From IMG/VR virus record IMGVR_UViG_3300020034_000024, positions 1-51,656 of that record: a stretch of 51,656 bases of DNA. One strand, 5' to 3'. This DNA comes from a virus. The position numbers were made by a program, and so were the translations under genes. The stretch's first letter is position 1, and every line of letters starts with the position of its first letter. The notes under the pieces were generated by a model that was not told where the DNA came from, ran no database searches, and saw only the letters and a program-made list of their open reading frames with translations. Below, piece by piece: positions 4,764-45,369 of this stretch.

Positions 4764-4973
4764 ATGTCTTTCGTAAAGTATATCTTAGTTTACAACATTA
4801 ACGATTATCCAGAGATGGGAGGAGGCCTTCAATACGAAGAATTTAAGACCGATGTTGAATTAGATAAAAAGGTGTTAGAAATATACAATTTTCATGATAT
4901 TATAGTAGCTGGAAAGGTAGAAGAGTTTAAGTACAAGGAAGTTGAAACGGTAACCAAAAAAGAACGCGAATGA
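4764..4973 (+). CDS. Hypothetical protein (69 aa), first gene of glycan island
   Basis: Small soluble protein starting MSFVKYILVYNINDYPEMGG, predicted as beta strands followed by a helix and a charged tail (EVETVTKKERE). No family recognised. It follows the promoter candidate and overlaps the next gene's ATG by the usual ATGA. Confidence 0.55.
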   Translation: MSFVKYILVYNINDYPEMGGGLQYEEFKTDVELDKKVLEIYNFHDIIVAGKVEEFKYKEVETVTKKERE

Positions 4974-5521
4974 TTTGCTCAATCGTGGCTTGTGGCCCCT
5001 CAGCTTCAGATTGGTGGAATACACCATGCGATTACTCAATAGGCTGCAATGACGCTTTTAAGTTTGGGTACGGATTCGATGAATTGCTAATCGTTAACTC
5101 TCCAAAGATGTTCACACCGGAACGGCTTGAGGTGATCAAAAAAACAAAGTGCGATAAGGTCAAGACTAATTCGGGCAACTGGGATAAAATATTCCCTCAA
5201 CAGGAAATAATCAGATTACAATCGTTCGGCAAGTTTTTAAAGAAAGGCCATATTTACAGTTCAAAGTCTTCCCCATTCGTTGCAATGTCGCTGTCCTTTA
5301 ATATGGGAGCTACGGACGTTATTTTGCACGGGGTAGATATGGAAACACATAATATTTTCAGCCCTAACAATCGCCACGGAAGCAATGAACATCGGATGTT
5401 TAACTACGAACTACGAAACATTCAGAACTTCACGCGAATGATGGTCGACCAGGGAACGAAAGTATGGCTAGGTAAAAAAGAAGGTGCTTTAACTCAATTT
5501 TTGAATGTATGGCAAGGCTAA
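4970..5521 (+). CDS. DUF115-like (Maf/glycosyltransferase-related) protein
   Basis: Residues 4-12 (SIVACGPSA) and 24-33 (IGCNDAFKFG) look like the nucleotide-sugar-binding start of DUF115/Maf-type proteins, which transfer or handle nonulosonic and other sugars. Later parts hold KSSPFVAMSLSFNMGATDVI and HGVDMETH, also in keeping with that fold. It is 183 aa, short for the full Maf family but usual for phage versions. It opens a row of glycosyltransferases, so a role in sugar handling is likely. The substrate cannot be told. Confidence 0.55.
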   Translation: MICSIVACGPSASDWWNTPCDYSIGCNDAFKFGYGFDELLIVNSPKMFTPERLEVIKKTKCDKVKTNSGNWDKIFPQQEIIRLQSFGKFLKKGHIYSSKSSPFVAMSLSFNMGATDVILHGVDMETHNIFSPNNRHGSNEHRMFNYELRNIQNFTRMMVDQGTKVWLGKKEGALTQFLNVWQG

Positions 5522-5570
5522 CAAATGCACAGAAAAGGCGAATAATGAGTAGAAAACATTTTTTTTGTTT

Positions 5571-6227
5571 ATGACCTACGGAATCCTTACACCGGATCGA
5601 GGTGATAGACACGTAATGTTACAACATTGCAATAAACAGGTTAAGTCGTTTAATCCTACTTATAATGCTTATTGTATCGTTGACTACAAACCTAAAAGTA
5701 ACAAACCGGATTTGACGGATAGAGTTTACGAAGGTTATATTTGGGCGCTTGAGAATAGGATTGAATGGTTGATAATGGTGGAATCAGATGATTTCTATCC
5801 AGTTGATTACCTGAATGATTTCTTAATTCACATGTCACACGCTGATTTTATCGGCTGCGAGTATTCACATTACTACAACATTCAAAGCAGAACATGGGAG
5901 AAACTAAACCATAGCAACCGGTCAAGCCTATACACTACAGCGTTCAGAGTTTCAGCCATGAAAGATTTTAACTGGCAACAGGCAAATAAATTGTTTCTCG
6001 ATATTGACATTTGGAGGTACGCAAGACGGTTTAAAAGGTCATTCATTCAAAACAGAGCCATTGGAATAAAAGGACATGGCGAAGGAATGGCGGGAGGCAA
6101 GGGGCATATTATGAGGTTCAGGAATTACGACCCCGATTTAGAATGGTTGAAAAAACACACGAACGAAATGAGTTTCGAGTTTTATAAAGGACTTAGTGAA
6201 AAGTTGAACCAGAAAGTTATTGCATGA
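5571..6227 (+). CDS. Glycosyltransferase, GT-A fold (GT2-like)
   Basis: The N-terminus MTYGILTPDRGDRHVMLQHC is the first Rossmann strand and loop of a GT-A enzyme, and VESDDFYP near residue 74 supplies the DxD-like metal/nucleotide-sugar site. A segment KGHGEGMAGGKGH near 170 may be the acceptor loop. About 218 aa. ATG 5571 is preferred; an in-frame TTG at 5565 is possible. It follows a 49-bp gap with a T8 run. Donor and acceptor unknown. Confidence 0.7.
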   Translation: MTYGILTPDRGDRHVMLQHCNKQVKSFNPTYNAYCIVDYKPKSNKPDLTDRVYEGYIWALENRIEWLIMVESDDFYPVDYLNDFLIHMSHADFIGCEYSHYYNIQSRTWEKLNHSNRSSLYTTAFRVSAMKDFNWQQANKLFLDIDIWRYARRFKRSFIQNRAIGIKGHGEGMAGGKGHIMRFRNYDPDLEWLKKHTNEMSFEFYKGLSEKLNQKVIA

Positions 6228-6245
6228 TGGAAGAAATTTGGAAAG

Positions 6246-6992
6246 ATGAGTCACACCATTAATACGTTTTTGCTGGCATGGAATGAAATTAGCATCGCTC
6301 CACTTATCATAAAACACTATCAAAAATTTAGTGATAAGGTTACGATAATGGATAATTACTCTACAGATGGAACGCCTGATTTAGCCCGTGATATGGGATG
6401 TGAAGTAAAGCAATTCGGTTCTAAGTTCTTTGACGATCAAAACAACATGGATTGCAAAAATTCATGCTGGCAGAATGATAGTGGTTCTTATAATATAGTT
6501 GCTGATTTTGATGAAGTATTGTTTTATTATGATGGTATGGGTGATTACCTTGATCAGGACTGTATAACAAGTGTTTTGCATAGAAGCACTCACGATGTAT
6601 ACAAAACAATTGGTTGGCAAATTATGAGTGATACAATGCCAAAGAATGATTTGCTTGAAGAGTTGAATGGGTTTAGATTTGACAACTATTCAAAGTCGAT
6701 TCTGTTCTCTGGTTCAATTGGTAGTATGGAATTTAATCCTGGGGCGCATAGGTGCAATCCAGTAAAACGTAATGGTGAAGATGTTGAGTATTCAAATGAA
6801 GGCAATATGTACGTCCTTCACTACAAACACATCGGAGGAGTTCAAAGAACGATCGACCGGTACAAAGAGTATAAACCGAGGATGAGTAAATTGAATAGAA
6901 AAATGGGATGGGGTTTGCATTATTCACAAACTGAACGTAGATTGCGTGAAGAATGGGAAGAGAGAATGAAAATAAGCAGGCCGTTAATTTAG
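6246..6992 (+). CDS. Glycosyltransferase family 2 / Glyco_tranf_2_4-like
   Basis: MSHTINTFLLAWNEISIAPL at the start and DNYSTDGTPDLARDMG at about 37-52 are the hallmark of GT2-like enzymes that begin with a 'WNE' strand. ADFDEVLFY near residue 88 gives a DxDE metal site. About 248 aa. The last 40 bases are overlapped by the HNH gene at 6953, an unusually long overlap for this genome and probably a scar of its insertion. Confidence 0.75.
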   Translation: MSHTINTFLLAWNEISIAPLIIKHYQKFSDKVTIMDNYSTDGTPDLARDMGCEVKQFGSKFFDDQNNMDCKNSCWQNDSGSYNIVADFDEVLFYYDGMGDYLDQDCITSVLHRSTHDVYKTIGWQIMSDTMPKNDLLEELNGFRFDNYSKSILFSGSIGSMEFNPGAHRCNPVKRNGEDVEYSNEGNMYVLHYKHIGGVQRTIDRYKEYKPRMSKLNRKMGWGLHYSQTERRLREEWEERMKISRPLI

Positions 6993-7477
6993 AAAAGTGG
7001 CTTCCAGTTTTAGGACTGAATAATTATGAGGTATCGAATACTGGTAAGATAAGGTCTATAAAATCGATGAAATCAGTTGCTATTTTTAAAAGAGAAAGCG
7101 GATATATATGTACAGGATTATTTCATAATAAAAGACCTATACAAAAACTTGTGCATAGATTAGTGGCAGAGGCGTTTATTTCTAATCCAGAAAACAAAAG
7201 AACTGTTAATCATTTGGATGATGATAAAACAAACAACAACGATTGGAATTTAGCATGGGCAACTTATTCAGAAAATAATAAACATGCATACTCTATTGGA
7301 TTGATGGACATTCATGGAGAGAAGCACATGCACGCAAAACTTGATAATGAAAAAGTTCTAATCATCAGAAAATCATGCTTAAACAGAATTGACATAAAAA
7401 AATATGCAAATAAATATTCGGTATCGGAATCAACTGTTTATGACGCTTTGAAAAGACGAACATGGACACACATATGA
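6953..7477 (+). CDS. HNH homing endonuclease with NUMOD4 domain
   Basis: A selfish DNA endonuclease. EKWLPVLGLNNYEVSNTGKI (residues 14-33) is a NUMOD4 DNA-binding module. VHRLVAEAFI then NHLDDDKTNNNDWNLAW (about 67-104) is the HNH_3 nuclease core with its conserved N and H. The C-terminus (KKYANKYSVSESTVYDALKR) is a helix-turn-helix. It lies inside the glycan operon, overlapping the preceding glycosyltransferase by 40 bases and the next by an ATGA. Full length, so probably active. This type can invade without an intron. Confidence 0.85.
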   Translation: MGRENENKQAVNLEKWLPVLGLNNYEVSNTGKIRSIKSMKSVAIFKRESGYICTGLFHNKRPIQKLVHRLVAEAFISNPENKRTVNHLDDDKTNNNDWNLAWATYSENNKHAYSIGLMDIHGEKHMHAKLDNEKVLIIRKSCLNRIDIKKYANKYSVSESTVYDALKRRTWTHI

Positions 7478-8190
7478 GCATTACCGTAGCAATTACCAAT
7501 TTCAACCGCGAGCAACTTCTTTACGAAAGTATAGAGCAGGTAATTGATGATCCGCGTATATCGGAAATTGTGATTAGCGATGATGCGAGCGAGTACGGAC
7601 TTTACACTCGTGTAGTTAATCACTATAAAGCTTACCCGAAAGTTAAGATTTACAGGAATGAAAAGAACTTGGATTGCTATTTGAATAAACATAAGGCGGT
7701 AAGTTTGGCAACGAACGAATGGGTTTTATTGATTGATTCTGATAACGTATTTTCGAAAGAGTTTATTAATAAGCTTTTCAGTGAAAAAGAATATTGGAGT
7801 AAAGACCAGATTTTTCAGCCATCATTTGCAAAGCCTCATTTTGATTTCACTGCTTTTGATATGGATGTCATCGATAGAAGAAATGTATCTGATTTTATGA
7901 TGCGTCATCAATTTCAAACTATGCTAAACGCGGCCAATCATTTCTTTAATCGCGAAAGATGGTTAGAGGTTTTTGATTCAAGCGTTGATCCAGTGACTAG
8001 CGATAGTATTTACCAAATGTATAGATGGCTTGATGATGGCAATTGTATTTATATAACGCCTGATTTACACTATGAACACCGCGTTTCAAACCACGGCAAA
8101 GAGGAAGGTAGTCACTATGTAAAGCGAAATAAAAAAACACCGAAAGGATTTCACGAAAGTATTGTCAACAAACTAAAAGCGATGAGATGA
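7474..8190 (+). CDS. Glycosyltransferase family 2
   Basis: MSITVAITNFNREQLLYESI is the classic GT2 N-terminal strand and helix. VISDDASE near residue 33 is the nucleotide-binding DD, and LLIDSDNVFS near 85-94 is the DxD metal site. 238 aa. I chose ATG 7474, which forms an ATGA overlap with the HNH stop, over an in-frame ATG at 7462. It couples to the GT11 gene by ATGA at 8187. Donor and acceptor unknown. Confidence 0.8.
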   Translation: MSITVAITNFNREQLLYESIEQVIDDPRISEIVISDDASEYGLYTRVVNHYKAYPKVKIYRNEKNLDCYLNKHKAVSLATNEWVLLIDSDNVFSKEFINKLFSEKEYWSKDQIFQPSFAKPHFDFTAFDMDVIDRRNVSDFMMRHQFQTMLNAANHFFNRERWLEVFDSSVDPVTSDSIYQMYRWLDDGNCIYITPDLHYEHRVSNHGKEEGSHYVKRNKKTPKGFHESIVNKLKAMR

Positions 8191-8948
8191 GTAATTTAGT
8201 TGTTCCACAGTTTTTAGGGCGTTTAGGAAATCAGTTTTTTCAGGTTGCAGCCGCTATTGGCTACGCTAAAAAATACAATACTGAATGGTTCGTGCCGCAA
8301 GGTTATCATCATCGCGAAATTTATAAGCATTGGAGCCTGCCAATATATCGGGGCAACATTCGTAAACTGAAGCTTTACGATGTTGCTACCGATCAAGGAT
8401 GGGGTTATTCACCTATACCATTTATGGACGGTGGCGTTCAATTGCGCGGATTCTTCCAATCACAGATCCATTTTGAGCATGGTGAACAGGATGTTAAGAA
8501 CGTTTTTAAGTTGCAGATTAACCCTATTGATTGTGTCTCTTTGCACGTTAGACGTTCGGATTATCTCGCACCAAATCAAGATACTTTCAAACCTATCGAT
8601 ATGAATTATATCACTCAAGCGATGGATGTGTTTAAGCAATCAGGCAAGACAAAGTTTATGGTAGTGTCGGATGATCTGCCATGGTGTCGCGAAAACATTA
8701 AAGATCCTGATTGTGAGATACTATTCAGCAACGGACAAAGCGTTTATTCTGATTTATGTCTCATGGCGAGCTGTGAAAATCATATAATTTCGAATAGCAC
8801 ACTCGCGTGGTGGGCTGCATATCTTGGAAGAAACGAAAACAAATTAGTAGTTTCGCCAAGTGCTGAAGCGCCCAATTGGTTCTTACATAGCAGAATGGAT
8901 ACGAGTAACTTATTGCCGAAGGAATGGATTCAAATTAAATACAGATGA
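8187..8948 (+). CDS. GT11 alpha-1,2-fucosyltransferase-like enzyme
   Basis: All three GT11 signatures are present: GRLGNQFFQ at 11-19, the GDP-sugar-binding HVRRSDY at 120-126 and SNSTLAWW at 202-209; VSDDLPW at 160-166 also fits. At 253 aa it is close to bacterial members (about 270-300). GT11 enzymes transfer L-fucose from GDP-L-fucose. The next gene makes GDP-L-galactose, and L-galactose is 6-hydroxy-L-fucose, so the true donor here may be GDP-L-galactose (inference). No fucose-synthesis gene is present in the window. ATGA overlaps both sides. Confidence 0.88.
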   Translation: MSNLVVPQFLGRLGNQFFQVAAAIGYAKKYNTEWFVPQGYHHREIYKHWSLPIYRGNIRKLKLYDVATDQGWGYSPIPFMDGGVQLRGFFQSQIHFEHGEQDVKNVFKLQINPIDCVSLHVRRSDYLAPNQDTFKPIDMNYITQAMDVFKQSGKTKFMVVSDDLPWCRENIKDPDCEILFSNGQSVYSDLCLMASCENHIISNSTLAWWAAYLGRNENKLVVSPSAEAPNWFLHSRMDTSNLLPKEWIQIKYR

Positions 8949-9919
8949 ATATATTAGTAACAGGCAGTTCGGGATTTATTGGGGGGCATTTAGTTAGAAG
9001 GCTAAAAGCAGAAGGCCATTTCGTTATTGGTGCAGATCTTGTAGAGCCTGAGTACTCACGACCAGATGAATTTCATTTGTGTGACTTGCGTAATTCTGTT
9101 TCATGTTATGAGATATTCATCAAACACAAAATAGATCATGTGTATAGTCTGGCGGCTTTAATGGGCGGGATGGGATACATAGGCGATTCAAAACATAGTT
9201 ACGATGTAATGATCGGTAGCTCACAGGTTGTTATTAACACACTGGATTATGCAATCAGAACAGGCGTTAAAAAAATATTCTATAGTTCATCGGCTTGCGT
9301 TTACAACCAAACGAAGCAGGAAAAAACAACCGATGTTTCATTAAAAGAGAGTGATGCATACCCATCTTTTCCGGACCTAGTCTACGGCTGGCAGAAATTA
9401 TTTAGTGAGCAACTACACCAAGCGGCAAGCGATAGAATTGAAGTAAGGATCGCAAGGTTTCATAACATTTACGGTCCTGAAGGATGTTATAAAGGAGGAA
9501 AGGAAAAGGCACCGGCTGCAATTTGCCGAAAAGTGGCAAGCGTGTCGGAACATGCAAAAACTGGCGGTCGGGGTATTGATAAAATACAAATTTGGGGAAC
9601 GGGTGAACAAACCAGGTCTTTTCTCTTCATAGAAGATTGCATTGATGCAGTTCGTTTGCTAATGGATTCCGATCATACAGAACCTATAAATATAGGAAGT
9701 GAGGAAATGATTTCTATCAACGACCTTGCTAAAATGGTAATTGGGATCGCTCAATATGCAGTTCGAATTAAGAATGTAAAGGGTAATGTTGGTGTAATGG
9801 GAAGGAATAGCGATAATACGGTAATCAGAAACGTTTTAGGATGGGAGCCTAAATTCACACTACGCGAAGGCATGACCGAAACTTTTAATTGGATAAATCA
9901 GGAGATTAATGGGAAATAA
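8945..9919 (+). CDS. GDP-mannose 3,5-epimerase (extended SDR)
   Basis: Extended short-chain dehydrogenase with the NAD-binding GSSGFIGGH at residues 7-15, active-site Cys118 in SSSACVY (114-120), catalytic YGWQK at 147-151 and a GGKEKAPAA segment at 184-192 with a conserved Lys. MGGMGYIG (73-80), RFHNIYGP (171-178) and RNSDN near 285 are, to my recollection, shared with plant GDP-mannose 3,5-epimerase, which turns GDP-D-mannose into GDP-L-galactose (and GDP-L-gulose). 324 aa; the plant enzyme is about 377. GDP-mannose would come from the host. A GDP-fucose synthase is less likely because the GGMG and GGKEKAP parts fit the epimerase best. Confidence 0.82.
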   Translation: MNILVTGSSGFIGGHLVRRLKAEGHFVIGADLVEPEYSRPDEFHLCDLRNSVSCYEIFIKHKIDHVYSLAALMGGMGYIGDSKHSYDVMIGSSQVVINTLDYAIRTGVKKIFYSSSACVYNQTKQEKTTDVSLKESDAYPSFPDLVYGWQKLFSEQLHQAASDRIEVRIARFHNIYGPEGCYKGGKEKAPAAICRKVASVSEHAKTGGRGIDKIQIWGTGEQTRSFLFIEDCIDAVRLLMDSDHTEPINIGSEEMISINDLAKMVIGIAQYAVRIKNVKGNVGVMGRNSDNTVIRNVLGWEPKFTLREGMTETFNWINQEINGK

Positions 9920-10241
9920 CCTATCAAGAAAGCAAAAGCTCCACAACGAAAGAGTAGGAGCGGAAGCGAAAGAAGTTTACACTAAACTAACGGCCAAGTT
10001 TTTGGAGTTCTTTATTTACTCTGATTCACCGGACGAACAAAAGATCGTTGACAAGATGGATGAACTATCAAAGAAGTGGAGACTATATTGCAAGGCTAAA
10101 AACCTTTTGCCAACGGTTTATCCGATTGTTGATCAGTACATGGAAGGCGTTATAAAGCAGTATTCAGAGATGGGTAAAAAGACCGATGATGGATTTGGAA
10201 TCGTTGAACCAAAAGTAGTTAACGATGGGATACCTGCATAA
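9909..10241 (+). CDS. Hypothetical protein in glycan island (110 aa)
   Basis: Helical, charged soluble protein starting MGNNLSRKQKLHNERVGAEA and containing KMDELSKKWRLYCKAKNLLP. No sugar-enzyme motif and no membrane segment. It overlaps the epimerase end by 11 bases and the methyltransferase start by 17 bases, so it belongs to the operon. Function unknown. Confidence 0.55.
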   Translation: MGNNLSRKQKLHNERVGAEAKEVYTKLTAKFLEFFIYSDSPDEQKIVDKMDELSKKWRLYCKAKNLLPTVYPIVDQYMEGVIKQYSEMGKKTDDGFGIVEPKVVNDGIPA

Positions 10242-10893
10242 CGGAGTAAAGACAGGCGGGGTTCCGATAGACTTTATAAAAAGGTTTGTTGACGCTTACG
10301 ATATTAAGATTTTCATTGAAACTGGAACAGCGGGCGGTCAGTCAGCACAAGATGCTGCAGCTATATTCGAATCAGTTCACACCATTGAGATAGTAGAAGG
10401 CCGGTCCAATGTTTTGTGTCCTGAAAATGTGAGTTTCTACATTGGTGATAGTTCGAAACTTTTAAAAACAATTGCAGCGCCATTCAAAGGCCAAAGGATA
10501 GTATTTTGGTTAGACGCCCATTGGTCTGAACCTTACGAATCACCTGAAGGAGTAAACGAATGCCCGGTACTTGAGGAAATAGCATCGATTAAAGGCCATG
10601 ACGCTTTAGTTTTGATTGATGATGCGCGTTTGTTCTTTGGTGCCCATCCTTATCCTGGCGATCCAAGAAAGTGGCCTAATTTTCAAAAGGTATTTGCTTA
10701 CCTTCGTGAAAGCTTTCCTAAACATGAAATTACAATAGTCGATGATTATATTATTGCTATACCTGATTACATGCGTGATACGTTCCACGTGGAATGGAGA
10801 GAGAGATTTAAAGAGCGTTATCCGGAAGCTATCGACCGTGTTAAAACGGAAATGAGGAATTCATTGGAGTACTTAAAGGAGTTTGTGCGATGA
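10225..10893 (+). CDS. SAM-dependent methyltransferase-like protein (Methyltransf_24 type)
   Basis: IFIETGTAGGQSAQDAA at about residues 29-45 is the SAM-binding motif I, with the acidic end of strand 2 in HTIEI (51-55). FWLDAHW (93-99) and LVLIDDAR (about 131-138) match the later strands of the Methyltransf_24/cephalosporin-hydroxylase-like fold. 222 aa. It starts a pair of methyltransferases coupled by ATGA, probably O-methylating the sugars built by the neighbouring transferases. Acceptor unknown. Confidence 0.65.
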   Translation: MGYLHNGVKTGGVPIDFIKRFVDAYDIKIFIETGTAGGQSAQDAAAIFESVHTIEIVEGRSNVLCPENVSFYIGDSSKLLKTIAAPFKGQRIVFWLDAHWSEPYESPEGVNECPVLEEIASIKGHDALVLIDDARLFFGAHPYPGDPRKWPNFQKVFAYLRESFPKHEITIVDDYIIAIPDYMRDTFHVEWRERFKERYPEAIDRVKTEMRNSLEYLKEFVR

Positions 10894-11510
10894 ATTGGAT
10901 AGAGAAAATGTATCGTTTAAATGGCAAGGATATGTACTCTCAGAATTCTGAGGGCTATTATCTTGAATACATTTTCGATAACATCTACGTTCATCCACAT
11001 GAAAAACGATTCATTGATATAGGTGGTGGGGATGGGTTCTACCTATCAAATACCCGACATCTTGATAATTTAGGATGGTCAGGACGTGTTTTAGATCGTG
11101 AAAATGGTATAGATATTACAATTCAAAATGTACAGGAATTCATTGAATTTAATCCAGCAGTGCTTTCTATTGACATTGACGGTAACGATTTTTGGATTAT
11201 AGACGAGATTTTAAAGGCTCAAAAACCGGCTGTTATTATAGCAGAATTCAACGCTTCATACATCGACTCACGCGCTATAAAATACAATCCTTTACACGAA
11301 TGGGCTGGCGATTCTTACTACGGATTTACTTTCAAAGCAGGGGAAAAGCTTGCTGAATTGCACGGCTACAAAGTAATTTTCCAAATCGCTGACATGAACA
11401 TGATAATGGTTCGCGCTGATTTGATCGAAGGCTTATACGTTCCGCCTGTGACATATAAACAAAGTGATTACTTTAAAATGTCGGAAAGAACCGATTGGAT
11501 TACCGTATGA
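10890..11510 (+). CDS. FkbM-like SAM methyltransferase
   Basis: RFIDIGGGDGFYLSNT near residues 40-55 is motif I of a class I methyltransferase, GWSGRVLDREN marks strand 2, and LSIDIDGNDFWIID near 92-105 is the characteristic D-x-(D/E)-G part of FkbM-type enzymes. 206 aa. FkbM methyltransferases O-methylate sugars and related groups. Coupled by ATGA on both sides. Target unknown. Confidence 0.7.
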   Translation: MNWIEKMYRLNGKDMYSQNSEGYYLEYIFDNIYVHPHEKRFIDIGGGDGFYLSNTRHLDNLGWSGRVLDRENGIDITIQNVQEFIEFNPAVLSIDIDGNDFWIIDEILKAQKPAVIIAEFNASYIDSRAIKYNPLHEWAGDSYYGFTFKAGEKLAELHGYKVIFQIADMNMIMVRADLIEGLYVPPVTYKQSDYFKMSERTDWITV

Positions 11511-11758
11511 AAATAGTTGAATGTAATGTTTGGTGTACGGCTGTTGATAAACAACTGATCGAATTAGGTGTTGCGGAAGGTGATTCATGGATGCCAATAG
11601 CGGTTGATTTTACCAGAGTTGTGGCAATTAAACTAAGTGGTGAAAATGATTTTTTAGGGGATGATAAGGCCACATTGTATTTCGATGGCAGAGAGTTGAT
11701 AGTAGATATTTCGTACACAGAAGCAATTAAATTATGGAAGTATGCTAATAAGCTTTGA
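11507..11758 (+). CDS. Hypothetical protein (83 aa)
   Basis: I chose ATG 11507, which overlaps the preceding stop as ATGA; the frame extends a few codons upstream from TTG. The product is mostly beta: MKIVECNVWCTAVDKQLIEL, then KATLYFDGRELIVDISY and a short helix. No family recognised. It sits between two methyltransferases in the glycan operon. Confidence 0.55.
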   Translation: MKIVECNVWCTAVDKQLIELGVAEGDSWMPIAVDFTRVVAIKLSGENDFLGDDKATLYFDGRELIVDISYTEAIKLWKYANKL

Positions 11759-12350
11759 ATCAATAGTAAAGAAGTACGGTAAGCCAAACGGTATCCTACA
11801 TTGTGGAGGGAACATAGGGGAAGAGGCACAAGCCTACGACTCTCAAGGCGTAAAAGATGTTTGTTGGATAGAAGCCAACCCCGAACTTATCCCAACGCTA
11901 AAGGCAAATGTGAAGCAATACGGGCATAAAGTTGTAGAGTCTTGTGTTTCTGATATGGAAGGTTTTGAGGTAGTTTTCCATATCTCGAATAATGCTGGAC
12001 AAAGTAGTTCTTTCTTGGAGCTTGGAACCCATAAAATTCAGCACCCTAGCGTGCATTACGTGAAAGATATTACAATGAAAACAAGGCGTCTTGATTCAAT
12101 GGGTTGCTGGGGAGGGTATGATTTCCTTAATTTAGATTTACAGGGCAGTGAGTTAAAAGCAATGCGCGGGCTTGGAGAATACTTGCACAATTTTAAATTG
12201 ATTTACTGTGAAGTGAACAAAGCAGCGGTTTATGTTGATTGTCCACACGTAAACGATATAGACCTATTCCTTAATGGATTCGGTTTTAAACGTGTTGAAA
12301 CAGCTAAATGGATAGGAGACTGGACAGACGCAATTTATATCAAAAAATGA
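11742..12350 (+). CDS. FkbM family methyltransferase
   Basis: ILHCGGNIGEEAQAY (residues 18-32) is motif I, WIEANPE (42-48) gives the acidic end of strand 2, and FLNLDLQGSELKAMRG near 128-143 is the FkbM signature. A hinge with MKTRRLDS precedes it. 202 aa, normal for the family. It starts inside the last 17 bases of the preceding gene and its TGA overlaps the next ATG. Third methyltransferase in the island, so the glycan is likely O-methylated at more than one place. Confidence 0.78.
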   Translation: MLISFESIVKKYGKPNGILHCGGNIGEEAQAYDSQGVKDVCWIEANPELIPTLKANVKQYGHKVVESCVSDMEGFEVVFHISNNAGQSSSFLELGTHKIQHPSVHYVKDITMKTRRLDSMGCWGGYDFLNLDLQGSELKAMRGLGEYLHNFKLIYCEVNKAAVYVDCPHVNDIDLFLNGFGFKRVETAKWIGDWTDAIYIKK

Positions 12351-12511
12351 CACCATACATCGAGCGAAAGAACACGCACAAAAAGCTGTTCAATGACTTG
12401 CTAAAGCAAAACATTAAAGCTGTTGACATTGCAGCGGCCAACATGATGAACCCGGAAGATTACCCGGTTTTCAAAAAGTTGATGGATAAGTTGATTAAGA
12501 ATTATAAATGA
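12347..12511 (+). CDS. Small helical hypothetical protein (54 aa)
   Basis: ATG 12347 overlaps the FkbM stop (ATGA); a longer frame from 12308 would lie wholly inside that gene and is not preferred. The product is basic and helical, with KAVDIAAANMMNPEDYPVFK in the middle. It couples to the GT47 gene by ATGA at 12508. Function unknown. Confidence 0.5.
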   Translation: MTPYIERKNTHKKLFNDLLKQNIKAVDIAAANMMNPEDYPVFKKLMDKLIKNYK

Positions 12512-13296
12512 CCAGAATCCAAGAGTTTCAGAAGCCGATAAAGGTTGCATATCCCGATGGAAATTCGGAAATCTTCGAACAATGGTTAATTGCTAATTGC
12601 GACCATCCGGATTATCTACCTATAAACTGGTGTGGATTTTTCGTGAATAATAACTATGGTAAGGATCGCATTCCAATGCAGAATTTGCAGCGGTTTGTTA
12701 ACGGATTGGATAAAAATAAACGTTGGTTTTCTGTAACCCAATATGACCTAGGAATACTTACGGACATTTCAGGATTGAACGTTAAAGTTTTCGGGTCCGG
12801 GGGTGGTCGTATAGACTTTCCTATTCCGTTGATTTGTAAGCCTCACGGAAGATTGGAAAATGATAGGACCATATTCGCGAACTTTGTAGGGTCGATAACT
12901 CACCCGCTTAGAAAGCGAATGATTGATGTTTTGAAAGGCGATGATTACTACATTTCAACTGTTCATCATTCAATTGAGGACTTTTGCGGTATTCTTTCAA
13001 AATCAATATTCACGCTTTGTTGTCGTGGTTTTGGGCTTACATCATTCCGGATATGTGAAGCATTGGAACAAGGAAGTATACCAATTTACATATCAGACGA
13101 GTTCATCATCCCAGGTCACAAAGATTTCAACGAATACGGGGTATTAATCCACTCCGATCAGATAAACGAGATAGACGACATTTTGAAATCAATCTCAATA
13201 GATCAGATAGTTTCAAAACAGGAAGCAGGGAAACGGATTTATGAGGAAATGTATTCATATTCTGGATGCAGGCAGTTAATTTTGGATAACCTATGA
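12508..13296 (+). CDS. Exostosin-like (GT47) glycosyltransferase
   Basis: FANFVGSITHPLRKRMI at about residues 131-147 and TLCCRGFGLTSFRICEALEQ then GSIPIYISDEF at about 170-200 reproduce the exostosin/GT47 nucleotide-sugar-binding end, with the conserved FxGS, HP.R and RG.G.TSFR..EAL..G.IP motifs. 262 aa, so essentially the C-terminal catalytic lobe plus a short N-terminal lobe. Last transferase of the island. Donor and acceptor unknown. Confidence 0.75.
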   Translation: MTRIQEFQKPIKVAYPDGNSEIFEQWLIANCDHPDYLPINWCGFFVNNNYGKDRIPMQNLQRFVNGLDKNKRWFSVTQYDLGILTDISGLNVKVFGSGGGRIDFPIPLICKPHGRLENDRTIFANFVGSITHPLRKRMIDVLKGDDYYISTVHHSIEDFCGILSKSIFTLCCRGFGLTSFRICEALEQGSIPIYISDEFIIPGHKDFNEYGVLIHSDQINEIDDILKSISIDQIVSKQEAGKRIYEEMYSYSGCRQLILDNL

Positions 13297-13472
13297 TTGA
13301 AGTTGGTAAAACATACGACATAAAAACTACTAGATATGGTAGTAAGTTTAAGGTCAAGAAGATAAATGAGAAAGGTATTGTTTGTGGGTATTACATGACC
13401 CCTGACAATAAATATAAACAAGGTGCTTGCATCAAAGACGTAGAGTTTTTAAAATTAATAACAAATGCTTGA
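13293..13472 (+). CDS. Small beta-rich protein (59 aa)
   Basis: ATG 13293 makes an ATGA overlap with the GT47 stop, and the frame ends at TGA 13470-13472 inside the start of the next gene. The product begins MIEVGKTYDIKTTRYGSKFK and looks like an SH3-like small barrel (alternating charged/hydrophobic strands). No family recognised. Confidence 0.5.
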   Translation: MIEVGKTYDIKTTRYGSKFKVKKINEKGIVCGYYMTPDNKYKQGACIKDVEFLKLITNA

Positions 13473-13746
13473 TTTCATCCTACTTTTAATCATCGGTAGC
13501 CTTTGGATTTGGGGTGTATTCGCGGTGTTCGATGATGGTATGATACTATGGCCAATTCGGGAAGGATTAGAATTTAGACTTCCTGTTAATTGCCTGAAAC
13601 CTTTCATTTCCTGCCCTGCATGTATGGCCAGTGTCCACGGGGTAATAATAGGGACTATTTACTACGACTTTCAAATTATAGTATTGGTTTACATGATTTG
13701 CCTTTGCGGTCTTAACTTCATCATTAAAGAATATTTATACCCATGA
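13465..13746 (+). CDS. Small membrane protein with CPAC motif (93 aa)
   Basis: Three hydrophobic segments: about 3-20 (FILLLIIGSLWIWGVFAVF), 55-68 and 70-86. Between them lies CLKPFISCPACMASVHG, a C-x2-C pair that resembles small phage membrane proteins of the DUF1360 kind. It bridges the glycan island and the tail block, overlapping both neighbours. Topology control or metal binding cannot be told. Confidence 0.6.
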   Translation: MLDFILLLIIGSLWIWGVFAVFDDGMILWPIREGLEFRLPVNCLKPFISCPACMASVHGVIIGTIYYDFQIIVLVYMICLCGLNFIIKEYLYP

Positions 13747-14480
13747 GTTTATTTCGCCCATCAAAAAGAGATTTATATCAGCTTAAAATTCTGGTTGAAA
13801 AGAACCTCACAGAAGCAGAGATTCAAAACTTCATGGATGTTGACTTTGGCGAGTTTGCCAAGTGGAAACAGAAACCGGAAGTTTTAGAAATCCTATCCAC
13901 TCGAAAGGTGATAGATTCAAGCAAAGACACAATCAAGCACCCGGATTTTGCCGATCAGGTTGAAGTAGCTTTCGAATGTGGGTTAGTGAAGTACTACCGG
14001 TTCACAGATCAATATAAGATGCCCACAGGTCGATACAAATACATCATGGCAGCGATTCGAGAAGTTGATCTACGGATGGACCTTTCGACCATGAACGGCT
14101 ATGTGGACGATTTAAAGAAGTCTTTGGACGGTCAGGCAAAGCAGATCGATTTAGCAAAAGCTTGGAAGACTATTTTCAGTATAGAAACGCGTCTAATGTT
14201 GGCATTCGAACCGGCAGGTATAAAGAAACTTGCTTCAGTATGCTACTTTACCGAGGATGAGATTTTGACCACATGGGATAAGGATGTGGATGGTAAAAAG
14301 AAGGTAGAGTTTTGGGATAAACACAACTGTCTGGATTTTTTTTTGACGAAGCCTATTTCAGAGTTAATAAGACTGAACGACTCTTCCATAACCTCTTTGG
14401 AAACATATTTGAGCCAGGCATCGGTGATTCTGGAGGAATTGAGTTATCAAGCACCCCAACCATCATCGGAGAATTTATAA
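13743..14480 (+). CDS. Tail assembly chaperone, short form (lambda gpG-like)
   Basis: Lies directly before the tape measure, where siphoviruses encode the tail assembly chaperone that coats the tape measure during assembly. 245 aa, charged and mostly helical, starting MSLFRPSKRDLYQLKI. Codons 199-200 lie in a run of nine T (14336-14344). A -1 slip there opens a second frame that runs to TAA 14642-14644 (next entry), giving a 300-residue long form, as with lambda G and G-T. The short form ends SSENL. ATG overlaps the previous stop. Confidence 0.75.
   Translation: MSLFRPSKRDLYQLKILVEKNLTEAEIQNFMDVDFGEFAKWKQKPEVLEILSTRKVIDSSKDTIKHPDFADQVEVAFECGLVKYYRFTDQYKMPTGRYKYIMAAIREVDLRMDLSTMNGYVDDLKKSLDGQAKQIDLAKAWKTIFSIETRLMLAFEPAGIKKLASVCYFTEDEILTTWDKDVDGKKKVEFWDKHNCLDFFLTKPISELIRLNDSSITSLETYLSQASVILEELSYQAPQPSSENL
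14336..14345 (+). promoter_or_regulatory. Slippery site for programmed -1 frameshift
   Basis: Nine consecutive T, read in frame zero as GAT TTT TTT TTG. Tandem TTT codons allow both tRNAs to re-pair after a one-base backward slip. I see no strong stem-loop directly 5-9 nt downstream, so long-T transcriptional slippage is another way to reach the same product. Confidence 0.6.
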
Positions 14481-14644
14481 AGAAATGGGAAAAAGATATT
14501 GTGTATCTTAGCGACTACAATCCAATAAAAGAGCGGGAACTTAGACGGATGGACATTTATTCTTTCTATTTTCGCATTAGTGATCAAAAGGAAAGAGCCG
14601 ACAAAGGCAAGAAAGGGAAGTTTGGCCGTGAGGCGTGGCAATAA
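14342..14644 (+). CDS. Tail assembly chaperone, frameshift extension (gpT-like)
   Basis: In the -1 frame relative to the gene at 13743, this stretch has no stop for 100 codons and no ATG near its beginning. It would be made only by slippage at the T9 run; T-TTT-TTT satisfies the X-XXY-YYZ slip rule. The product begins DEAYFRVNKTERLFHNLFGN and ends GKKGKFGREAWQ just before the tape measure, where lambda T-type extensions end. 14481-14644 would otherwise be a gene-free gap in a very compact genome. A homopolymer sequencing error is the main alternative; then only one fused protein would exist. Confidence 0.7.
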   Translation, partial: FDEAYFRVNKTERLFHNLFGNIFEPGIGDSGGIELSSTPTIIGEFIKKWEKDIVYLSDYNPIKERELRRMDIYSFYFRISDQKERADKGKKGKFGREAWQ

Positions 14645-23465: not shown

Positions 23466-24334
23466 GTGCCTCCGAATTAGCGGAAAGTATTGAAGGTTTA
23501 GTTATCGCAGGAAACGAAGCGTATGGATTAGCTTTGATTAAAGTCCAAAACAAGCTTTATAACGACCTTGTTACTATCCTGAAATTCGTTGAAACCAATG
23601 ATGAAGGGTACATTCTGCAAAACGCTGGCAACCGGCAAATACTTCGAGCGGCACAAGGTCAATTCGATAAAACAATCCAAGGTTCAATCTATCAAAGTGC
23701 TTTAGAACAACATCTTCAAGCTATACCGGCAATTGATTCGCTTAACGTTACATACTTCGAAAGTATTTCCAGTGCATTTAAACCTAACCGGGTATTCATC
23801 CAGCAACTACAAGCGCAGACTATTGAAACTGTTAATTCGTTGGTTCTGCAGGATGGGTTAGCGGCTCAGGTTAAACTTCCGTTGAATCAAATCCTTTCGC
23901 AGAACATCAATACAGGTGGTTCATTTTCCGGAATGCTCCAGCAAGTTCAAACATTCGTCAAGGGTGACAGTACTTTGGATGGAAGGCTTTTAAGTTACTC
24001 GAGAGGGATTGTAAAGGATTCACTTTTCCAATATGCCAGAGCTTACCAAAATTCGGTTACGGCTGATTTGAAATTGGAATGGTTCGGATACGTTGGCGGG
24101 CTAATCGATACAAGTAGACCATTTTGCATTGAAAGAAATGGACATTACTATATTCAAAAAGAGATTGAATCGTGGGCCAGTTTAGAATGGAAAGGTAAGA
24201 ATCCGTTAACTACAGAAAGTTCTATTTTCGTGCTTGTAGGTGGATTTTCGTGCCTGCACCAGTTAATTCCAGTGTCAGAGTTGATTGTGCCAAGTGAGGA
24301 AAAAGAAAGAGCAAAAGAATTAGGCTTCCTTTAG
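23462..24334 (+). CDS. Phage head morphogenesis (MuF-like) minor capsid protein
   Basis: GTG at 23462 overlaps the portal stop (GTGA). Near the C-terminus, GLIDTSRPFCIERNGHYY followed by a W-rich helix and GGFSCLHQLIPVSEL (about 218-273) is the MuF motif set (D-T-R-P-F-C...G-x-x-C-x-H). 290 aa. MuF-type proteins sit near the portal and are packed with the head. It ends 15 bases into the converging minus-strand NUMOD4 gene. Confidence 0.75.
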   Translation: MSASELAESIEGLVIAGNEAYGLALIKVQNKLYNDLVTILKFVETNDEGYILQNAGNRQILRAAQGQFDKTIQGSIYQSALEQHLQAIPAIDSLNVTYFESISSAFKPNRVFIQQLQAQTIETVNSLVLQDGLAAQVKLPLNQILSQNINTGGSFSGMLQQVQTFVKGDSTLDGRLLSYSRGIVKDSLFQYARAYQNSVTADLKLEWFGYVGGLIDTSRPFCIERNGHYYIQKEIESWASLEWKGKNPLTTESSIFVLVGGFSCLHQLIPVSELIVPSEEKERAKELGFL

Positions 24335-24568
24335 CCAGCCCTCACCAACTAATACATGCAATCTTAATGTGGTCCTATCTTTAGCATTGTATCCGAACAA
24401 CTTAGCGAAATATCCAGAAGAGTCTACAGTTCCAATAGAGATATATCCATCAGGAAATTTCTTTCTCATCTTGATAGTAAACGCCTTAACTCGACCATGA
24501 TTAGAAATATGGTATCGATCCTCGAAACCTTTAATTGGCTTCCAAATCTCTTCATCAGTGGTAATCAT
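24320..24568 (-). CDS. NUMOD4-domain protein, probable homing endonuclease remnant
   Basis: EEIWKPIKGFEDRYHISNHG (residues 6-25) is a clear NUMOD4 DNA-binding module, followed by GRVKAFTIK and LRLHVLVGEGWLKEA. The last part, HVLVGEGWL, looks like the first step of an HNH_3 core (compare HRLVAEAF in the gene at 6953), but the nuclease is missing. 82 aa on the minus strand within a plus-strand head operon. Its end overlaps the MuF stop. Probably a truncated homing endonuclease; a DNA-binding remnant with a regulatory role is possible. Confidence 0.7.
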   Translation of the reverse strand: MITTDEEIWKPIKGFEDRYHISNHGRVKAFTIKMRKKFPDGYISIGTVDSSGYFAKLFGYNAKDRTTLRLHVLVGEGWLKEA

Positions 24569-24720
24569 TTCTTTTCCGGTTTAACTACACTTTCAATTTT
24601 TTCCTTGTACTCAATAATCGCTTTTCGATAAAGAACTGATTTATTACCCCCTTCTTTTTTCCCTTGATTGCTTGCCCACTTCATTAATTCTTTCTCAATC
24701 TTAAAACAGTCTTGTATCAT
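24565..24720 (-). CDS. Small basic protein on minus strand (51 aa)
   Basis: Starts at CAT 24718-24720 (MIQDCFKIEKELMKWASNQG), ends KPEKK with TGA overlapping the NUMOD4 ATG (ATGA). Lys/Glu-rich helical protein. The coupled arrangement suggests a two-gene minus-strand insert. Function unknown. Confidence 0.5.
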   Translation of the reverse strand: MIQDCFKIEKELMKWASNQGKKEGGNKSVLYRKAIIEYKEKIESVVKPEKK

Positions 24721-24772
24721 AGTTGTATAAACAATGTTTTCACAATATACTAATGTTGTACTAATTTAAGCA

Positions 24773-24786
24773 AATATTTGTTATAA
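24773..24786 (+). promoter_or_regulatory. Promoter candidate before scaffold/capsid operon
   Basis: AATATTTG followed by TTATAA, the third copy of the ATTTGTTATAA composite (others 2808 and 4736). The first base of the TAnnTTTG box does not match. It lies in the gap after the minus-strand insert, 61 nt before ATG 24842. Confidence 0.4.
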
Positions 24787-24841
24787 TTTTCTTTAACCTG
24801 TTGATTATCAATACTAAATTCGAACAAACAAATTTTGCATT

Positions 24842-26011: not shown

Positions 26012-27109
26012 ATGCCTCCAATTAATTTAAATATTGTCGGAGCGTGTGAACGGATCGTAAAAGAAGCCGAAACACTCGCAGGACAAAACTATGCGTTCAA
26101 TATGCAACGCAAAACTGGTGCTCTTGACTTCATTACATCCCCTGAAAATGGCGGAGTAGATGCAAGTTTGATCTCTCATCAGGCTGGAACAAAACTAGCA
26201 AAACTGCATATCTTTTACGATCAACGTACAAAGACATGCGAGACTACTGATGATTGCTTTTCAAATGTGTGCGATGATGGATTTACTCCACTTCGTAAAG
26301 AAGCTGATATTACAATATCGAGCTGTATTAAAACTAAGGTTCGTGGTTACTCCAATGATGATATGGCAGCTTTGTGTAACAACACAGAAGTTTTCATGCG
26401 CGAAAGAGGATTCAGCGATTTAAGAGCTGCACGTGAGCATTTCTCGGAGAAGATTCTCGCATCCATGGATGCATTAAGAGGTCAAAACAGACGATTCAAT
26501 GGGACTACAATTGCGGCAGGTAATAATGCCACGATTGATTTGTTAGGGGTTGATTCAAACAGTCAGCCAATCCCACTACCGGGTAATTTCGCTTACATGC
26601 CTTTGGATTATCAAAACAACCAATTGAATGGAACTCCTGCCGTAATTGGTCAGGGTAACTTCGAATTGTTTTGGAAACTTCACGGCTATTCTTGCTGTAA
26701 TTCATCCACTCCTTATGGAGAGGCTAATATTTCTGGTGAAGTTCGTTTCTATCTTGATCAAGCGGCCAATGCTGTTTTAGGTGCAAATGATGTTTTAATG
26801 GTGGCTCCCGGTGCTTTGCATCTGTTGACATTCAATGAAAACAGAAACATTGCCGCTTCTGGTGTTAACTCACCTGATGCGTTCCATATCGTGGTTCCTG
26901 ATCCTGCTGGTTATCCATTCTCATGGAATCTTGATTTCTACTTTGATCATTGCGATAAGGTTTGGAAATCACAGTATTCAATCCTGTGGGGAATGTTTGA
27001 TACTTTCAGAGATGATTCGTTCAGTAACAACTCAGAAACAACTGGTTCTCCTGATTGTACTGACGAACTGGACGGGCTTACTGGAGTTTTCGGATTTGCC
27101 ATCACTTAA
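26012..27109 (+). CDS. Putative major capsid protein
   Basis: 365 aa, following the scaffold, size normal for an HK97-fold capsid protein. It contains the expected pattern of an N-terminal helix-rich arm and beta-rich domains, with VRFYLDQAANAVLGANDVLM and LMVAPGALHLLTFNENRNIA near 250-280. It has ten cysteines (for example TCETTDDCFSNVCDDG near 80-95 and YSCCNSS near 229), unusual for a capsid protein. The assignment rests on context and size, with some support from composition. Confidence 0.72.
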   Translation: MPPINLNIVGACERIVKEAETLAGQNYAFNMQRKTGALDFITSPENGGVDASLISHQAGTKLAKLHIFYDQRTKTCETTDDCFSNVCDDGFTPLRKEADITISSCIKTKVRGYSNDDMAALCNNTEVFMRERGFSDLRAAREHFSEKILASMDALRGQNRRFNGTTIAAGNNATIDLLGVDSNSQPIPLPGNFAYMPLDYQNNQLNGTPAVIGQGNFELFWKLHGYSCCNSSTPYGEANISGEVRFYLDQAANAVLGANDVLMVAPGALHLLTFNENRNIAASGVNSPDAFHIVVPDPAGYPFSWNLDFYFDHCDKVWKSQYSILWGMFDTFRDDSFSNNSETTGSPDCTDELDGLTGVFGFAIT

Positions 27110-43061: not shown

Positions 43062-43170
43062 ACAAGCCGAATGGCACCCATTGGTAAGAATGGATTTAAA
43101 ACATTGTCATGCCCTTAGTTTACAATTGGAGTCTTACCGCTCTGAACGTTTACGGGGCTTTTTACTTTTT

Positions 43171-45369
43171 ATGGAATATGAAGACTTTTTAAAAACCAAA
43201 CATCGTAATTATACTTTGAGTGGTTTCGATGTTGATGAAAATGACCTGAATGAAAACCTTTTTGACTTTCAGAAGTACATTGTTAAACGTGCTTTAAAGG
43301 CGGGGCGTTACGCATTATTTTGTGAATGTGGAACGGGTAAAACAATCATGCAATTAGCGTGGGCTGATGCTGTTATTAAACATACAAATAGATCTGTATT
43401 GATTCTTTGCCCTCTTGCGGTAAGTGCGCAAACTATTAACGAGGGTTTAAAGTTTGGTATTCAGGTTAAGCGTTTTAAGAAAGACTTTACCGAACTAGGT
43501 ATTTACATTACTAACTATGAACAACTCGAAAACATTACCGATGAAGAAATAGATAAATTCATCGGAGTTGTTTTAGACGAAAGTTCAATACTAAAAAACT
43601 TTACAGGTGTTTATAAGAACTTGATTTTGGATAAGTTTAAACAAACTCCTTATAAACTTCCATGTACCGCTACTCCTTCGCCTAATGACTTGAATGAGAT
43701 CGGTAACCATTCAGAGTTTTTAAACATATTAGACGCTCAAGATATGCGTTCTAAGTGGTTTGTTCGTGATGAAGGGATGAATAACTACCGACTCAAGGCA
43801 CATGCAAAAGTAGATTTTTATGCATGGATTTCGTCATGGGCTTGTATGCTTTCAAATCCTGCCGACTTGGGTTTTGATGGAAGTAAATTCGTTTTGCCTC
43901 CACTTAATTACATTGAAAAACGAATCCAGACAAAGCAACGTGAAAACGGAAAGTTATTTAATGACGCTTCAATTAACGCAACAAACTTCAATAGTGAATT
44001 ACGCTTAACAAAGCTGGAAAGATTATCTCAAGTAGTAGATATCGTAAAAAGTTCGACTGATAACTTTATCATTTGGGTAAAGCAAAACGAGGAGGCTGAC
44101 TATTTGAAAAAGTTAATTCCTGATTCGGTTGAGGTCCGTGGAAATGACAATACCACTTTAAAAGAAAAGAACCTTTTAGGATTTGCAAATAATGAATTCA
44201 GGGTTTTGATTACTAAATCTAAGATAGCTCAATTTGGTCTTAATTATCAGAATTGTCATAATCAGATATTTGCTTCATTAGATTTTTCTTTTGAGGGATT
44301 GTATCAATCAATTAGACGTTCTTACAGGTTCGGACAAAAACAGGCAGTAAACATTTACATGATAACCACAGACACTATGCAAAACGTAATAAACTCAATC
44401 AAAAAAAAGGAAAGGAACTTTTTGGAAATGCAAGAAGAGATGAACCGTAATATAAATTCAAAGCAGTACGGTTTACTGACTGACTACGATTACAAAGAAG
44501 TAAAGTCAGACAATTACCTTCTAATGAAAGGGGACACCTGCAAAGAGATTAAACGCATCCCTGACAATAGTGTTGATCTAATTGTTTTCTCCCCTCCTTT
44601 TAGTTCGTTGTTCACTTACTCGAATTACATTCACGACATGGGGAACAATGAAAACCACGGAGAGTTTTTTAAACAGTATGCTTATCTTTTGAAAGACCTT
44701 TATAGGATACTTAAACCAGGTCGTTTAATGTGTTGCCATACTAAAGACTTGGGAGTTTATAAAAATAGTTCGGGGTACACTGGAATGTATGACTTTACAA
44801 ACGATCACACAAAAGCAGTACAGGCAGAAAATTTCAAACTACATTCTAAGATTACTATCTGGACAGATCCTGTACTCGAGATGCAAAGGACTAAAACCCA
44901 AAGATTACTTTATAAAACAGTTACAAGCGATTCAACATTTACCGGAATAGGGATGGCTGAATATGTTACGATCTTTAGAAAGTGGGAAGGTAATCAGGAA
45001 AATTGGGAGCCGGTTACAAACTTGACAAAGCAAAACTTTCCTTTGGATACATGGCAAAAGTGGGCAAGTCCAGTTTGGATGGATATTCGTAGGACTGATG
45101 TTTTGAACGGTCACGAAGGAACAGCTCAAGGTGATGAAAAGCACATTGCACCGCTTCAGCTTGAGGTTATTCATAGACTAGTAAACCTTTATACTAATCG
45201 TGGGGAGGTTGTATTCACTCCTTTTTTAGGTATAGGATCAGAAGCCTATCAGGCAATTAAAGACGGTAGGAAGGCGATAGGATGCGAATTAAAGGATAGT
45301 TACTTCGATGTTGCGGTTAAAAATTGTAACAATGTAGTAGCTTCTAAGGAACAATTATCATTCATATAG
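43171..45369 (+). CDS. SNF2-type helicase fused to a DNA methyltransferase (732 aa)
   Basis: Residues 30-400 form a superfamily 2 helicase: Walker A CGTGKT 53-58, DExx box VLDESS 134-139, TATPS 166-170 and motif VI QSIRRSYRFGQK 379-390. Residues 450-720 form a beta-class N4/N6 methyltransferase: catalytic SPPF 474-477 comes before the SAM-binding FLGIGS 685-690. Other conserved parts are RILKPGRLMCCH and QGDEKHIAPLQL. The helicase could move along DNA while methylating it. No restriction partner is seen, so it may protect phage DNA. ATG 43171 chosen; earlier ATG 43090 is possible. Confidence 0.88.
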   Translation: MEYEDFLKTKHRNYTLSGFDVDENDLNENLFDFQKYIVKRALKAGRYALFCECGTGKTIMQLAWADAVIKHTNRSVLILCPLAVSAQTINEGLKFGIQVKRFKKDFTELGIYITNYEQLENITDEEIDKFIGVVLDESSILKNFTGVYKNLILDKFKQTPYKLPCTATPSPNDLNEIGNHSEFLNILDAQDMRSKWFVRDEGMNNYRLKAHAKVDFYAWISSWACMLSNPADLGFDGSKFVLPPLNYIEKRIQTKQRENGKLFNDASINATNFNSELRLTKLERLSQVVDIVKSSTDNFIIWVKQNEEADYLKKLIPDSVEVRGNDNTTLKEKNLLGFANNEFRVLITKSKIAQFGLNYQNCHNQIFASLDFSFEGLYQSIRRSYRFGQKQAVNIYMITTDTMQNVINSIKKKERNFLEMQEEMNRNINSKQYGLLTDYDYKEVKSDNYLLMKGDTCKEIKRIPDNSVDLIVFSPPFSSLFTYSNYIHDMGNNENHGEFFKQYAYLLKDLYRILKPGRLMCCHTKDLGVYKNSSGYTGMYDFTNDHTKAVQAENFKLHSKITIWTDPVLEMQRTKTQRLLYKTVTSDSTFTGIGMAEYVTIFRKWEGNQENWEPVTNLTKQNFPLDTWQKWASPVWMDIRRTDVLNGHEGTAQGDEKHIAPLQLEVIHRLVNLYTNRGEVVFTPFLGIGSEAYQAIKDGRKAIGCELKDSYFDVAVKNCNNVVASKEQLSFI

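Follow-up and report, generated by a model that had tools for sequence, protein, structure and literature searches.

The window, the whole stretch of DNA that was analysed (51,656 nt; IMG/VR record IMGVR_UViG_3300020034_000024, positions 1 to 51,656), carries directly before its tape measure gene what is quite probably a tail assembly chaperone gene whose decoding switches to the −1 frame in a programmed way. The frame switch itself is strongly supported and close to certain, and the chaperone role, suggested by position and anatomy, is very probable. We infer the slip itself, its route and its ratio from nucleotide sequences. In all 19 relatives that we found, the T run is present together with an open, conserved −1 frame, as the original prediction required, and the two frames are nowhere fused into one ORF, which marks the switch as programmed. 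The features discussed here are the following.

13743–14480, plus strand: frame-0 gene (G-like short form, 245 aa), an ORF kept in 19 relatives
14336–14344, plus strand: candidate T9 slip site, GA[T TTT TTT TT]G in frame 0, matched in position and phase by T8 to T10 runs in 19 relatives
14336–14644, plus strand: predicted extension in the −1 frame (T-like domain), 102 codons long when counted from the run through to its stop, an open frame with protein-level conservation
14345–14480, plus strand: double-coded stretch (frame 0 and −1), third positions constrained in both frames, each frame open against chance, −1 frame without a start codon
14664–17210, plus strand: tape measure gene, 19 nt 3′ of the −1 frame stop, with PHROG and tblastn matches

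Gene organization and reading frames

Codons 198–201 of the frame-0 gene read GAT TTT TTT TTG, with TTT TTT at codons 199–200 as originally described. Two slip-site heptamers are found there, T_TTT_TTT at 14336–14342 and T_TTT_TTG at 14339–14345. This T9 is the sole A or T run of at least nine across the window, where about 2.4 T runs of at least nine were expected from a dinucleotide-based random model; a T9 alone is thus not rare. In the −1 frame, no stop occurs between 14321 and the one at 14642–14644, confirming the predicted stop-free frame of 100 codons that ends just before the tape measure. The frame-0 gene ends 183 nt upstream of the tape measure ORF, on the same strand. The −1 fusion is predicted to be 300 aa long, with 100 aa beyond codon 200. 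With 8 T in place of nine, the gene would run straight into a TGA. Its predicted tryptic transframe peptide is HNCLDFFFDEAYFR, or alternatively HNCLDFFLDEAYFR if the slip is placed on the TTG codon, and the predicted tryptic peptide specific to the short form is HNCLDFFLTKPISELIR. The original prediction had also called 14481–14644 the largest gene-free gap in the structural region in the absence of the extension. This did not hold, as 24335–24841 is larger (no plus-strand ORF of at least 90 aa) and 13297–13464 measures 168 nt.

Conservation of the T run

Used as direct queries, neither protein half gave a match in viral contigs, genome contigs or phage records, and the chaperone protein had no credible match among 50,697 phage records. 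Relatives were reached through the conserved protein encoded at 26012–27109 (a putative capsid protein, judging by its position), which led to IMG/VR contigs, from these to the chaperone gene and then to alignment scans. The scans yielded 21 loci (27–51% identity), some being copies of one phage (L064, L065, L066). The analysed alignment had 20 rows including the window, about 16 of them well separated, and the other 19 were viral contigs with the same gene 5′ of a tape-measure-like ORF (27–51% identical protein). One relative, L036 (JAGVCW010000004.1 = IMGVR_UViG_2830710863_000002), sits in a Candidatus Paceibacterota metagenome bin. Only that bin, among 287 Paceibacterota genomes, has the chaperone family. 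Misbinning is therefore likely, and a Paceibacterota host was rejected.

The T run is uninterrupted and in the same phase in all 20 rows, its first T being a third codon base. Its length is T9 in 14 rows, T8 in five and T10 in one (13, five and one among the 19 relatives alone), and only two length changes are required on the tree. The T8 rows form one clade, with GAT TTT TTT TAC. The codon preceding the phenylalanine pair is GAT, GGT, ACT or GCT, so that the residue varies and the T is constant. T_TTT_TTT is present in every row, and T_TTT_TTG is present in most and absent from the T8 clade. The run is never shorter than eight and never interrupted by TTC, which makes up about half of phenylalanine codons. 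Based on each phage's codon use, the chance of a T at the first position across 16 lineages was 2.6e-5 and that of TTT at each phenylalanine codon 3.9e-5. The joint chance (T and both TTT in 16 lineages, given the residues) was about 4e-14, a figure that is somewhat overstated because the lineages were treated as independent. What goes beyond chance is that 19 relatives conserve the T run in the same position and phase. The search patterns left third bases free, and when a scan relied solely on residues encoded before the run, it recovered the identical loci with no exception. Therefore, search bias does not explain this conservation.

Selection on both frames

The −1 frame comprises 91–107 codons in each relative and is conserved at the protein level. 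Frame 0 continues for 45 codons past the run in the window and for 38–53 across relatives. We compared codon positions in seven disjoint pairs of relatives. Upstream of the run, frame-0 positions 1, 2 and 3 differed at 0.26, 0.16 and 0.53; in the double-coded part, the same positions differed at 0.15, 0.23 and 0.30; past the frame-0 stop, −1 positions 1, 2 and 3 differed at 0.21, 0.15 and 0.40. Third positions are therefore constrained in both frames where these overlap (p = 9e-12 and 2e-6), and the 38–53 codons after the run are subject to selection in each of the two frames. For nearly every member, shuffling synonymous codons in one frame closed the other in the majority of draws. The +1 frame has three to seven stops. 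In two relatives a −1 stop abuts the T run, which means that the switch must happen inside the run.

Family identity and neighboring genes

The chaperone protein matched no family in Pfam, PHROGs or NCBIfam, and an hhalign comparison of its profile with lambda G and P2 E was null. Fold searches gave no homology to known chaperones; the structure models were too weak for these results to count. The family, unnamed in Pfam, PHROGs and NCBIfam, is deeply diverged. As its profile resembles neither lambda G nor P2 E, the protein is not placed in the G/GT family and would work like G/GT without detectable kinship. No downstream RNA structure was found, either singly (z about −1.7 to +2) or jointly (no pairs), in analyses of pseudoknot-free folds, and an Rfam search returned no name.

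The tape measure gene matched PHROG 18891 (E 8e-9) and phrog_32115 (E 4.5e-26) in the family libraries, and Porphyromonas phage tape measures in tblastn (E 4e-21). Upstream of the chaperone gene, the family-library searches recognized no major tail protein; a small membrane protein and sugar genes are found there. The former (13465–13746, plus strand) has 93 aa, carries the motif KPF.SCPACMASVHG...CLCGLNFI and showed no family match in these searches. Several relatives have look-alikes directly 5′ of the chaperone gene. Sugar, glycosyltransferase and methyltransferase-like genes occupy 4970–13296, between the terminase and tail genes.

The gene order is unusual, with the tape measure module 5′ of the portal and putative capsid genes. 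Minus-strand ORFs lie within the plus-strand structural block at 24320–24720; the larger one starts EIWKPIKGFEDRYHISNHGRV, which we take to resemble the start of a NUMOD4-type homing endonuclease. A single plus-strand ORF at 43081–45369 joins ResIII and Helicase_C helicase domains to an N6/N4 DNA methylase domain.

Alternative explanations

Homopolymers are error-prone in sequencing, and a run of 10 T would fuse the two frames of the window into one ORF, so that the T9 might be a sequencing or assembly error, or the mark of a decaying gene, in what is naturally one gene. The 20 contigs come from many samples and all have two frames, with no fused ORF among them. In addition, the frame-0 tail past the run is under selection as well, which speaks against both error and decay. 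The error reading is refuted by the relatives, and a naturally continuous gene is extremely improbable; the alternative of 8 or 10 T raised with the original prediction failed on the same grounds. Alternatively, translation of the −1 frame might start independently, as a second gene overlapping the first. Phages often have overlapping genes, and some relatives have GTG or ATG at −1 codons 11–45. However, 12 of the 20 rows, including the window, have no ATG, GTG or TTG in the first 45 −1 codons, and such a gene would leave the retention of the T run unexplained. We consider this highly improbable.

A harder question is which machine slips. RNA polymerase might stutter on the T run and insert an extra U into some transcripts, so that those with 10 U would give the 300-aa protein by normal reading and those with 8 U would stop at TGA. 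The run always has at least eight T and no TTC break, whereas a ribosomal heptamer would allow TTC at its final position, and the failure to find an RNA structure downstream points the same way. There is also a precedent in a type III secretion gene, where polymerase slippage yields a 112-aa C-terminal extension (PMC5009743). On the other hand, descriptions of known tail chaperone switches attribute them to the ribosome, the runs of one clade are all T8, and the last phenylalanine codon is also constrained by what its bases encode in the −1 frame, which offers another possible cause for the absence of TTC. The lack of TTC thus leans toward the polymerase and the ribosomal nature of known chaperone switches toward the ribosome. 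We infer that the ribosome is the likelier slipping agent; polymerase stuttering is possible, if on the unlikely side. The more specific combination of a form ratio set by polymerase slippage, a chaperone family unrelated to known ones and a short form with a selected 45-codon tail is unlikely.

For a tail chaperone gene with a frame switch, we counted the conservation of the T run, the recovery of the same loci by the upstream-residue scan, the selection on two frames, the conserved −1 frame, the −1 stops abutting the run in two relatives, the adjacent tape measure gene and the P2 parallel without a hairpin. Counted against it were the lack of chaperone homology, the lack of a recognized major tail protein upstream and the 135-nt frame-0 tail.

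Comparison with known systems

Like lambda gpG/gpGT, the window would produce a short and a −1-extended form of one gene directly 5′ of the tape measure, with an in-phase slip heptamer. In lambda, however, the slip site is GGGAAAG and frame 0 ends 18 nt past the heptamer, against 135 nt in the window, and lambda gpG has no profile similarity to the window chaperone. The originally proposed lambda G/G-T layout fits in position and anatomy, but sequence or fold homology to known chaperones was not found and the slip is not near the end of the short form. P2 E/E+E′ is similar in that a −1 shift occurs at TTTTTTG, without a downstream hairpin (PMC3091744), directly 5′ of the tape measure. P2 differs in its run of six T against 8–10 here and in a frame 0 that ends 21 nt past the heptamer; P2 E has no profile similarity to the window chaperone either. 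The lambda and P2 distances from slip to stop were measured by the same script. For PRFect, the mean distance was 26 nt in one phage set and 36 nt in another (PMC10885494). Double-coded codons number 38–53 in this family and about six in lambda and P2.

In Shigella spa13 and Thermus dnaX, polymerase-slippage genes, a second frame is likewise reached by slippage, and the C-terminal extension of spa13 is of comparable size (PMC5009743). Unlike the window gene, these genes do not encode tail chaperones, and for the window slippage at the RNA level is a proposal. The flavobacterial phages Tenacibaculum JQ, Polaribacter P12002S and lillamy have a single-ORF gene at the same position before the tape measure, without a T run and without a −1 extension. 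A profile comparison with this gene gave no significant homology. Tenacibaculum JQ and Leeuwenhoekiella Arctus_1 have a distant tail protein in common with the window. This kind of switch is known from other tailed phages; what is new, judging by the open-access literature, is the unrecognized protein family and the unusually long double-coded stretch.

Proposed mechanism and significance

The majority of decoding would yield the 245-aa G-like protein, while a minority would slip back one base within GAT TTT TTT TTG, enter the −1 frame and produce a GT-like protein of 300 aa that differs in its C-terminal domain. For a ribosome, the candidate heptamer would be either T_TTT_TTT or, as in P2, T_TTT_TTG. 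If lambda is a guide, the N-terminal part common to both forms may coat the product of the adjacent tape measure gene, and tail-tube subunits may be recruited by the rarer −1 domain.

The family would widen the set of phage tail chaperones produced through frame switching, with a plain T run as its fixed element. In every such phage, the −1 half would escape gene callers. Silent changes in the run can tell slipping by the ribosome from slipping by the polymerase, which makes these phages a clean comparative set for distinguishing the two.
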